DNA of 21,151 bases from a virus: positions 5,831 to 26,981 of the IMG/VR virus record IMGVR_UViG_3300039106_000288; one strand, given 5' to 3'. Below, in pieces: positions 17,749 through 21,151 of this stretch (within the stretch, counting starts at the first letter, position 1; every line of letters begins with the position of its first letter). The notes under the pieces were generated by a model. That model was not told the origin of the DNA. It worked only from the letters and a program-made list of their open reading frames with translations, and made no database searches. The translations under genes were made by a program, and so were the position numbers.

Positions 17749-17994
17749 TCATATGTTTTTATGACGTACCATTAAAGCATGAAAGATAGGTCTGTATGTA
17801 GCCAGGTACTCTACCCATGCACCTGGCAGAGGATCTCCTAAGATGTAGACAGTACCAGATTCAGCCATGACTTGACGCCACCGTACACCGGTGATCCTCA
17901 GAGTCATCCAGTAGATCCTGGTACCGACGTCACCAATAGCGGATACAGACCCATCTGCAGTAGGTATCATCTTCCAGTTGTCTAGTCTCAGCAT
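17749..17994 (-). CDS. Small unknown protein coupled to the virion protein
   Basis: The protein has 81 residues. Its ATG directly follows the stop of the gene upstream (TAAATG), with no clear ribosome site, so coupling is likely. Sequence includes LDNWKMIPTADGSVSAIGDVGTRIYWMTL and SGTVYILGDPLPGAWVEYL, which read as beta strands with many aromatic residues, a composition typical of phage structural proteins. A virion role beside the large virion protein is inferred; no family is recognised. Confidence 0.62.
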   Translation of the reverse strand: MLRLDNWKMIPTADGSVSAIGDVGTRIYWMTLRITGVRWRQVMAESGTVYILGDPLPGAWVEYLATYRPIFHALMVRHKNI

Positions 17995-19668
17995 TTAGTA
18001 CTGCACCAACAGAGCAGTGACGGCTAAATGTAGATCCCCGGTACTGACACGTTTAATCCATCTCAATGTCACCGTACGATGTATGGGTACAGCTTGCTGG
18101 AATGTGATATCGTGATTCCAATCTCCGACTGGTACCTCGGTATACGAACCGCCATACATGACTACCACATGGGTAGGTGTAGGTGGACGTAGCTCACGTT
18201 GCAGGTTCATCAGTGGGAATGACTCATAGTACATGTGCTGCAACCAGTCTGTATATACATCGAATCCAGATGCCAGGTTGATGACTTCAGTGTCTACGCT
18301 GCGTATGAATAGATCACGACCAAATGCAGGACGAGACGGTAGATACTCGTTAGACATCTCCCATGGGCATTTCATATCGCTAGGACGACCATGTAAAGCG
18401 ATGGCTACAAGCTGTGTATGGATGAATGGTTTGAATGCACCTGATACCGCACTGAGGTTTACACTGACTGATATCTGCTGCAGACGTCCGTATCCTTGAG
18501 GCATGAATGATGGAGTGTTGGCTGAGTATACCACGAATGGAGTTACGTCAAAATAGACATTACGATCTAGGTTCAGCATCCACCACTGCAAACGATACCC
18601 GACGATGTCATCTATCCATACTGGGTACCCAAACAGTTTAGTCGTATAAGAGTTGTTAGGGTTTACGGTACGTAGAGTATATGGCTCAGTAACACGGTGT
18701 CCGTTAGCTGATACCCCTGCATATGCGATCTCATTGTTAGACAGCGTATATGACAGTACTAGATCGACTTCTTGACCTACGATGGTTGAGAGGTACTGGT
18801 CGATACCATATAGAGAGAACTTCCCTCCATTGGCAGGCAGCTCCATCTCGTGACCATCTGAGTAGTGTACCACACCAATCACGTTCAGTGCGTTGATTGG
18901 AACGTTTAGTGGGTAATCAATGACATGGTCATTAGTAGATGATAAAAACGGTGTACGCAGTGAGATATGTGTGACGTAGCGCTGTGATACATTCAACGAT
19001 CTAATGAACGCCGTGTTTTCTACTAGCAACTGACGTTTAGATACTACATGCCCTGAGTCTGAATATACGACTACTGTCACGATCTCACCGTCTACTAGCC
19101 CATGAGTGGTGTGACATATCTGCACGGTCTTGATGCTGTAGTTGATATGTGAGTCAATCGCTACGAGTTCTAGTGGCACTGCATCTGAGATGTAGTTGCC
19201 CGTACCGTCATACATCTTACTGATCACAACACCGGTTTTAGACACGTCAGATCCTTTAAAGATCTTACAGTATGATGACATGCTGCCGGCTACTTTGAGA
19301 CGAATGTCGACAGCCATGATGTGAGGCATGACGGAATCATCTACATATACACGGTATGTATCGGCCTGTGTACCAGGACCTACACCGAACAACACGTCAG
19401 TCTCAGTCATCGTAAATGACATACCAGACTGATGGATCTCACGTAGTGTCGGGATCAAAGTCACAGGATCTAGATGGTCTACTACAAATATCGTATATGT
19501 TTCACCATTGAAGTCTGTCACGAAATCCAGTACTTTAGGGACGAACCGCTTAGCAGCTGCTTGTCCCAAATATATATCCTGCATACCCCAGTTACGCCAT
19601 ATGCCCTCAGGGTCGTACTGCGGAACGACCCCGTCGATTCCCGAAGTTATTGGGTTTTGTAAAGTCAT
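17995..19668 (-). CDS. phiKZ-type virion structural protein, present start created after a homing-gene insertion
   Basis: The protein has 557 residues. The motif PEGIWRNWGMQDIYLGQAAA near the N-terminus is one I associate with conserved virion proteins of phiKZ-like phages near the terminase. The rest is beta-rich with no enzyme motif. ATG 19668 has GGAG with 7-base spacing, lying inside the end of the homing endonuclease gene (4-base overlap). The present N-terminus MTLQNPITSGIDGVVPQ repeats SGIDGVV from an 18-codon orphan frame at 20838-20894. The ancestral gene therefore probably began at 20894 and was split, and this copy restores the protein with a new first ten residues. Confidence 0.75.
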   Translation of the reverse strand: MTLQNPITSGIDGVVPQYDPEGIWRNWGMQDIYLGQAAAKRFVPKVLDFVTDFNGETYTIFVVDHLDPVTLIPTLREIHQSGMSFTMTETDVLFGVGPGTQADTYRVYVDDSVMPHIMAVDIRLKVAGSMSSYCKIFKGSDVSKTGVVISKMYDGTGNYISDAVPLELVAIDSHINYSIKTVQICHTTHGLVDGEIVTVVVYSDSGHVVSKRQLLVENTAFIRSLNVSQRYVTHISLRTPFLSSTNDHVIDYPLNVPINALNVIGVVHYSDGHEMELPANGGKFSLYGIDQYLSTIVGQEVDLVLSYTLSNNEIAYAGVSANGHRVTEPYTLRTVNPNNSYTTKLFGYPVWIDDIVGYRLQWWMLNLDRNVYFDVTPFVVYSANTPSFMPQGYGRLQQISVSVNLSAVSGAFKPFIHTQLVAIALHGRPSDMKCPWEMSNEYLPSRPAFGRDLFIRSVDTEVINLASGFDVYTDWLQHMYYESFPLMNLQRELRPPTPTHVVVMYGGSYTEVPVGDWNHDITFQQAVPIHRTVTLRWIKRVSTGDLHLAVTALLVQY

Positions 19669-20786
19669 TGTACATCTCCAGAAATAGGTGGCACGAAGAC
19701 ACCATTGTTTTTAAGGCAGTTATATCGATATTGAGACTTGGATAGATTAAATGCCATGCAGAGCTCTTTTATACTAGCGTAGTAAATTCCATTAACTGTT
19801 ACAGGCCTTGTCATTTTGGCCCTACGTTCAGGGTCTTCCCAAGATAACCTAGAACGCTCTGACATCTTGGCTTTATATGCAGGGTCTTCCCATCTTAATT
19901 TGGTATTCTCCGCCATCTTAGCCTTATATTCAGGATCCAGCCATCTAGATCTAAGGTGACCTGACATCGTATCTTTATATTCGGGATCTTTCCATCTCTC
20001 AGTCAGTTCTTTACTGACTGCCTCGGACTTCATAGCTCTGAATTCAGGGTCTTTCCATTGTTCGATAGCGGCTTGTCTTGAGACCTCCACGTTAGCAGGA
20101 TCTTGCATTCTTTCTTTAGCCCTTTTAATAGTAGCTTCTTTAACATCTGGTCGGTTAGCTACCTCTATTCTTTTAGAGATCTGATGTTCTCTATATGCAG
20201 GGTCCTTCCATAACTCTGCCACAGACTCTCTGGTACGTTCCACTGTAGCAGGATCTCTATTAGCTTCAGTGAGAGCTTTAACTGCCTTCTCTCTATACTC
20301 AGGATCTTTCCATCGGTCAATGGACTTACTGCTTATAGTTGATTTGGTTACATCAGAGTGAGATTTACCTTGAAATGGATTGACATAATCTGGCTTAGAT
20401 GCCGACTCCTTATGCATGTCACTAATCATCTTCTTAGTTTCATCACTGTGTTTCCTACCCAACATAGGCATATGACATACCTGACTAATGTTTAGTAGAT
20501 TAGATCCTTCTTTATAGAGATTTATCAATCCTTTCTCCATTTCAAATGCTAATTCTGGAGTATCTACTTGCAGTACCGTAATATCTATTACGCTGGCTGT
20601 TTTAAAAGACTCGGCTACATTCTTATTCTCATGCTTACCGGTCCTGATTTTGGTAAGGTGGTCCTTTATCCTTTTCTCTATTACAGAGCTAGCACCTATG
20701 TAGATATCTCCGTTCTCGGGATTATGTAACTGATATACCGCAGCTCCGGTCTGGCTAGAGAAATTACCTATTACTTCAATATTCAT
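19665..20786 (-). CDS. GIY-YIG homing endonuclease with NUMOD-type repeats
   Basis: The protein has 373 residues from ATG 20786, which has GGAGT nearby; a start at 20825 lies in a hairpin. AVYQL (16-20) and IYIG (28-31) are the GIY and YIG elements, R39 is the catalytic arginine candidate and E84 (FEMEKGLINLY) the metal-binding glutamate. GRKHSDETKKMIS and GKSHSDVTKSTIS are NUMOD3-like. About ten units of 15-19 residues follow, built on RWKDPEYKAKM, then a NUMOD1-like helix-turn-helix (VNGIYYASIKELCMAFNLS). It should nick or cut a specific site and drive its own spread. It sits between the old and new starts of the virion gene. Its base composition looks more A+T-rich than its neighbours, fitting recent arrival. 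Confidence 0.9.
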   Translation of the reverse strand: MNIEVIGNFSSQTGAAVYQLHNPENGDIYIGASSVIEKRIKDHLTKIRTGKHENKNVAESFKTASVIDITVLQVDTPELAFEMEKGLINLYKEGSNLLNISQVCHMPMLGRKHSDETKKMISDMHKESASKPDYVNPFQGKSHSDVTKSTISSKSIDRWKDPEYREKAVKALTEANRDPATVERTRESVAELWKDPAYREHQISKRIEVANRPDVKEATIKRAKERMQDPANVEVSRQAAIEQWKDPEFRAMKSEAVSKELTERWKDPEYKDTMSGHLRSRWLDPEYKAKMAENTKLRWEDPAYKAKMSERSRLSWEDPERRAKMTRPVTVNGIYYASIKELCMAFNLSKSQYRYNCLKNNGVFVPPISGDVQ

Positions 20787-20837
20787 TATGAACTCCGATT
20801 TGGAATAGCCGATACAGACATGCATCGGCTTGTTAAT

Positions 20838-20894
20838 CTATAGAACCACTCCATCAATTCCCGAAACAGGTGGTATAGGTATTACATTTGCCAT
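20838..20894 (-). pseudogene. Orphan 5' end of the split virion gene (18 codons)
   Basis: ATG 20894 has a perfect AGGAG with 6-base spacing and encodes MANVIPIPPVSGIDGVVL before TAG. SGIDGVV is also at the start of the 557-residue virion protein. A 23-base stretch (20843-20865) matches 19623-19645 with four differences, all in third codon positions. This is best read as the original gene start, cut off by the homing-gene insertion and still translated as a short peptide. Confidence 0.75.
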
Positions 20895-20904
20895 ACGGCA
20901 CTCC

Positions 20905-21147
20905 TTATATGGTTCTAATAGAAACTAAAGCAGTCAGATCTACTGTATCTTGAAAATACAACTTCACCACTTTAGATAAAAAACGATACTCCATGGCATC
21001 GAGGGATTGTACGGTATCACTAGCATGTGGGTATATGACGATGTATCGTGGATCGATACCGATGCGAGCTGGATCGAATCTCAACAGAAACTCATATGGT
21101 CGACATATATCCAGGATCTCTAGATCCGTGAGGTTTTTCATGATCAT
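20905..21147 (-). CDS. Small unknown protein at the right edge
   Basis: At least 80 residues. ATG 21147 and ATG 21141 are both possible starts, and the sequence that would hold the ribosome site is at or beyond the edge. Sequence LTDLEILDICRPYEFLLRFDPARIGIDPRYIVIYPHASD, taken in parts, suggests an alpha/beta small protein; YRFLSKVVKLYFQDTVDLTALV follows. No known domain. Its stop is 10 bases before the old start of the virion gene, so it probably belongs to the same virion operon. Confidence 0.6.
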   Translation of the reverse strand: MIMKNLTDLEILDICRPYEFLLRFDPARIGIDPRYIVIYPHASDTVQSLDAMEYRFLSKVVKLYFQDTVDLTALVSIRTI

Positions 21148-21151
21148 AGAC

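Follow-up and report, generated by a model that had tools for sequence, protein, structure and literature searches.

In a giant, phiKZ-related phage, a homing endonuclease gene lies between what appear to be two copies of the start of a single virion gene. How did the gene come to possess two starts, and does the second of them, as a sequence-only reading of this DNA had proposed, carry silent changes that were selected to protect it from the enzyme? The window (the whole stretch of DNA that was analysed, 21,151 nucleotides) comes from an IMG/VR virus record of 38,765 bases, in which it forms one contig, and carries phiKZ-type genes. These include genes for the PhuZ tubulin, DNA polymerase and the large terminase, recognised by phrog matches.

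Organisation of the locus

The order on the minus strand is gp027 homologue, orphan start, GIY-YIG homing endonuclease gene (HEG) and gp026-like virion gene, with the following features:

17995..19668, minus strand: restored full-length virion structural gene, 557 aa, with the live ATG at 19668 and the start MTLQNPITSGIDGVVPQ (phrog_3430, E=1.2e-162)
19623..19645, minus strand: duplicated stretch, live copy (TTCGGGAATCGACGGGGTCGTTC), 19/23 identity to the orphan copy; used in the codon analysis
19665..19668, minus strand: ATGA overlap (4 nt) of the HEG stop and the live gene start, from the sequence
19677..19691, minus strand: candidate third copy of the start, within the HEG at its 3' end (VPPISGD; 13/15 nt; 4/1839 random fragments as good; noticed post hoc)
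19665..20786, minus strand: free-standing GIY-YIG/NUMOD3 homing endonuclease gene, 373 aa, ATG 20786 to TGA 19665 (Pfam, phrog and TIGR matches)
20807..20830, minus strand: predicted 10-bp RNA hairpin in the gap that separates the orphan stop from the start and ribosome site of the HEG (folding against shuffles)
20838..20894, minus strand: orphan gene start, ATG 20894, MANVIPIPPVSGIDGVVL, TAG ending at 20838; probably the 5' end that the virion gene has abandoned (syntenic with the place where the gene begins in 88 relative loci)
20843..20865, minus strand: orphan copy of the duplicated stretch (TTCGGGAATTGATGGAGTGGTTC), identical to the live one at 19/23 bases
20905..21151, minus strand: 3' end of the gp027 homologue (DUF7193 / phrog_3184; Pfam PF23823, E=2.4e-16; phrog_3184, E=9.1e-17)

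The TAA stop of the gp027 homologue (20907-20905) overlaps the Shine-Dalgarno sequence of the orphan, AAGGAG (20906-20901), a strong ribosome site six bases ahead of its ATG. The stop of the orphan and the start of the HEG are 51 nt apart. An 81-nt stretch holding the hairpin gave a z of -2.27 (4/200 shuffles fold equally well), and the hairpin could regulate translation of the HEG, which has GGAG 6 nt ahead of its ATG. Another GGAG (19679-19676), inside the HEG, is the predicted ribosome site of the live gene; stop/start overlaps comparable to the ATGA are present at other HEG loci. The details given in the sequence-only reading, among them the old start at 20894 and the new one at 19668, all proved correct.

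The window is bounded by a scaffold gap of 10 N (record positions 26982-26991) with GTCTATGAT on both flanks (21143-21151 on the window side), and the remainder of the gp027 homologue is found across this gap, just beyond the window. A frameshift of the gp027 homologue at the window edge was considered and discarded: if the two 9-mers represent the same bases, the reading frame is continuous, and the apparent break in the gene is therefore an assembly artefact.

The product of the HEG has a GIY-YIG domain at residues 17-93 (PF01541, E=1e-8, above cut-off), in which Y18, Y29-I30-G31, R39, H43 and E84 are invariant (alignment A2), so that the conserved Y, YIG, R and E of the catalytic domain are all present. 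It also matches the homing endonucleases of phrog_314 (E=1.2e-28) and, above cut-off, TIGR01453. DNA-binding modules typical of homing enzymes are found as well, namely NUMOD3 at residues 110-152 (PF07460, E=1.9e-6) and repeats: seven WxDPxx repeats, perhaps DNA-contacting, are encoded at 19841-20312 (minus) between NUMOD3 and an HTH-like C-terminal segment. The final codons of the HEG encode VPPISGD (CCACCTATTTCTGGA, 19691-19677), which resembles IPPVSGIDG of the orphan (CCACCTGTTTCGGGA) at 13/15 nt and in the same frame. Tentatively, and on a resemblance spotted post hoc, this tail may have been left by an earlier round of joining. Elsewhere, the record of a relative phage (G005, the record of L023) has three GIY-YIG-type endonuclease matches (L166, L168 and L169) within about 17 kb, possibly a HEG island.

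The HEG does not lie in a self-splicing intron. Neither a group I intron nor any other Rfam family was matched at E<=1 over 17900-21151, and with 51 nt before the HEG and none after it there is no room for an intron core.

The gene start in related phages

The interrupted gene belongs to the phiKZ gp026 family, as judged from full-length homology and from the gene order gp027-gp026. It is matched in 271 phage records, to which a profile scan with the virion protein added 78 IMG/VR relatives, and a solved structure exists for the homologue PHIKZ026 (entry 9xqd, E=1.7e-94). The nearest relative is about 50% identical. Among the nearest relatives the N-terminus consists of a short, highly variable leader followed by GxDG(V)VP and then YDP (GxDGVVPxYDP). 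Examples are AGIDGVVPVYDP / MTEISTIGVAGIDGVVPVYDP in L020, VGTDGVVPQYDP / MSETTPLTTIGIVGTDGVVPQYDP in L021 and AGNDGVVP / MSTPITATPPAGNDGVVP in L040, while FLC9, the nearest named phage, begins with MSTAQVTGTDGVVPIYDP. Since the family retains the GxDG(V)VP motif at this N-terminus, the orphan and the live start are both judged genuine gene starts.

In 88 relative loci both genes could be placed, some of these loci being one phage present in two collections. The gp027 homologue adjoins the gp026 homologue with a median gap of 3 nt; three gaps exceed 60 nt. The largest, of 358 nt, occurs in L091. Neither an endonuclease nor a second GxDG motif was found ahead of the gene in any of the 88 loci, and the orphan is positioned exactly where the relatives begin their gp026-like gene, directly after the gp027 homologue. 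Because these loci run from gp027 to gp026 without HEG or second start, the insertion is judged from gene order to be real and, among the loci compared, the HEG arrangement to be peculiar to this window. The view that the HEG interrupted the start of the virion gene and that a second, complete start downstream restores it is thus supported by the 88 loci, none of which provides what would have spoken against it, an endonuclease-free relative with both starts.

The sequence-only reading had further expected uninterrupted relatives to display the orphan's own beginning continued into the gene body. Relatives do lack the insertion, with one start each and the GxDGVVPxYDP motif, but an allele with MANVIPIPPVSGIDGVV itself was not found among them. 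Close uninterrupted alleles were likewise missing from single-protein scans of viral and genome contigs and from a DNA search of the phage collection. A degenerate motif scan for GIDGVVPQYD gave no match, and a looser scan returned, of the virion gene, the contig of L020 again and nothing else. Nor was a duplicate start present at any of the other HEG loci surveyed (absent at 16/16); it is therefore not a general habit of such endonucleases.

Origin of the two starts

The resemblance between the two copies is hardly fortuitous, as 0/1839 random same-strand fragments of the window match the orphan as well as the live copy does, and both copies are situated at predicted gene starts. A duplicated host-gene end thus flanks the HEG, one copy being functional in the sense that its full-length frame is intact. 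The orphan reads TCG GGA ATT GAT GGA GTG GTT and the live gene TCG GGA ATC GAC GGG GTC GTT. Both encode SGIDGVV, and, as had been noticed before, four consecutive codons differ, in the third position alone. The leaders ahead of the motif, MANVIPIPPV in the orphan and MTLQNPIT in the live gene, are dissimilar.

It might be thought that such a pattern calls for selection. In the earlier interpretation, a mobile unit brought a replacement start which had been recoded at consecutive wobble positions, enabling it to escape its own endonuclease and to avoid back-recombination. The differences are indeed all synonymous and consecutive, HEG donor alleles need to withstand the enzyme that they encode, and in an experiment recoding let a gene escape the PhiPA3 enzyme gp210 (PMC11620839). 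However, on the codon usage of nine genes in the record, two codon choices made independently for SGIDGVV are expected to differ at 4.4/7 codons, against 4 observed; the probability of four or more differing codons is 0.77 and that of a run of four or more is 0.25, statistics weakened by the shortness of the compared stretch (7 codons) and by its having been picked for matching. Neither copy uses odd codons (frequencies for the live gene: ATC 0.63, GAC 0.35, GGG 0.16, GTC 0.22; for the orphan: ATT 0.15, GAT 0.65, GGA 0.20, GTG 0.26). Moreover, the insertion already separates the halves of the site, so that additional recoding is not required for immunity. There is, then, no more synonymous change than divergence explains, as would mark a recoded, cleavage-resistant homing cassette. 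Neutral synonymous divergence suffices, and the claim that the live start was recoded so that the enzyme cannot cut it, which we regard as improbable, could not be upheld. The broader idea that a whole class of such units in phages enters the starts of essential virion genes with a wobble-recoded replacement start, the in-frame PPISG tail being the trace of an earlier round, appears distinctly unlikely; if true, insertion would be nearly cost-free and the unit immune to its own enzyme.

Equally synonymous differences would be expected to arise if the sequence had simply been duplicated within one genome, the HEG insertion having duplicated its target and the copies having drifted without any foreign DNA? 

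They would not: a silent stub should lose amino-acid identity as fast as its third positions changed, and a stub decaying in place at the divergence seen in the third positions would keep all 14 first and second positions unchanged with a probability of about 0.001, a rough figure from seven codons. The two copies flanking the insert, possibly joined by a third in the tail of the HEG, accord with such a duplication; the unalike leaders do not, and we consider it very improbable. The same figure roughly indicates that the divergence took place under protein-level constraint on both copies. The lack of any amino-acid change between them argues that each had served as a working gene start in a phage of its own before the two came together. 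The joining of two alleles after divergence in different phages fits these data best, and the pattern of divergence favours two lineages without telling which copy is foreign.

The explanation that we consider probable is insertion of the HEG into the start of a gp026-like gene together with a start of that gene from a diverged relative, the resident start being left behind as a stub. Cleavage, which we infer to have occurred near the resident gene start, would have been repaired on the template of a co-infecting diverged phage with the HEG directly ahead of its own gp026 homologue. On the right side the joining would have been homologous, within the gene body. On the left side it would have been non-homologous, after GTT at about 20842, where the insert junction is placed because homology ends after the orphan copy. 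A gene composed of the donor start (MTLQNPITSGIDGVV...) and the resident body would have been re-formed in this way, with the first 17-18 codons of the resident stranded upstream as a stub ending in a stop. Translation of the restored gene would proceed through the ATGA overlap with the HEG and the internal GGAG, and the four synonymous differences would represent natural divergence between two alleles, selected recoding being unneeded. The live start would accordingly be that of the donor and the orphan that of the resident, the endonuclease presumably drove the event and is presumably still active, and it is plausible that the unit 'brings its own start'. A close uninterrupted relative would then begin MANVIPIPPVSGIDGVVPQYDPEG, without the HEG. 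The scaffold gap 257 nt upstream of the orphan counts against this explanation; the longest exact word common to the two sides is 9 nt, which makes a misassembly or chimeric join unlikely.

The roles of the two copies might also be reversed, the live start being resident and the HEG with its left flank (the end of the gp027 homologue and the orphan) having come from the donor, joined just ahead of the resident start. An A+T-rich block (39-41% G+C versus 46%) does extend over the HEG, the orphan and the terminal 243 nt of the upstream gene. However, the low G+C of the upstream end resides in codon positions 1 and 2, while its third positions have an ordinary G+C (25% of windows are lower), so that the block is a weak hint and a foreign A+T-rich left flank was rejected; relatives, too, are slightly lower in G+C at the end of the upstream gene, and the ribosome site of the live gene lies within the HEG. 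We regard such a reversal as unlikely, with some modest chance of being right; a HEG-free close relative would in that case begin MTLQNPITSGIDGVVPQ, not MANVIPIPPVSGIDGVVPQ. Finally, the strong ribosome site and intact motif of the orphan, with a stop and a hairpin directly after it, could point to a functional leader peptide or to a 5' exon whose gene is completed by splicing or bypassing. Against this, no intron family was matched and the live gene has a complete start of its own. The ribosome bypass known from T4 gene 60 covers 50 nt (PMC5009743), compared with about 1.2 kb here, a distance which, together with the complete new start, makes programmed ribosome bypassing unnecessary. A leader or exon is thus highly improbable.

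Relation to known systems

The closest parallels are the 'gene hybrids' that HEGs have formed in fungal mitochondria, in atp6 of Allomyces macrogynus, in atp6, atp9, cox2 and nad3 of Glomus and in cox2 of Phlebia (PMC3630166, PMC4019555). There the HEG open reading frame brings a diverged 3' end of the host gene and the native end is displaced, with mostly synonymous differences between the two (PMC3630166). The present locus likewise combines a HEG with a diverged copy of one gene end, a displaced stub and more difference in DNA than in protein. In the fungal hybrids, however, it is the 3' end that is replaced, with the donor copy upstream of the HEG, whereas here it is the 5' end, with the inferred donor copy downstream, in a phage; and the native end was identified there by close relatives, while the roles of donor and resident here are deduced. 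The locus is accordingly a 5'-end variant rather than a plain member of that group, and would be the mirror image, at a phage 5' end, of the fungal 3'-end hybrids. A limited literature search found no phage precedent for replacement of a 5' end together with a HEG.

Are free-standing phage HEGs within conserved genes known elsewhere? 

They are: nrdA of Aeh1 is split by mobE and the T4 topoisomerase gene 39/60 by mobA, gene 60 having in addition a 50-nt bypassed insert (PMC2988022, PMC5009743). The present HEG resembles these in lying free-standing within a conserved gene. In the Aeh1 and T4 split genes, as described there, the protein stays in pieces that assemble, whereas here the gene is whole by way of its second start and the leftover is 17-18 codons. 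T4 seg-type GIY-YIG HEGs and HEG islands are similar in being next to a conserved gene, in overlapping the neighbour and in marking a likely exchange boundary; no duplicate gene starts were found for them in the passages searched (PMC2988022, PMC10448857). PhiPA3, also phiKZ-like, likewise has a homing endonuclease, gp210, within a conserved gene, but this HNH enzyme belongs to a putative group I intron of an RNA polymerase gene, while no intron is found here (PMC11620839).

If the probable explanation holds, a free-standing HEG can occupy a conserved virion gene and yet leave the protein in one piece, with neither an intron nor an intein involved, the working gene end being supplied by neighbouring DNA imported with the HEG. 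The locus would also offer a test bed, with one enzyme and three sequences (orphan-type, uninterrupted and live), for immunity by synonymous divergence. The nuclei of phiKZ-like phages are thought to limit recombination (PMC10299810). This phage 5'-end case would widen the fungal 3'-end pattern and would imply exchange of DNA between diverged phiKZ-like phages.
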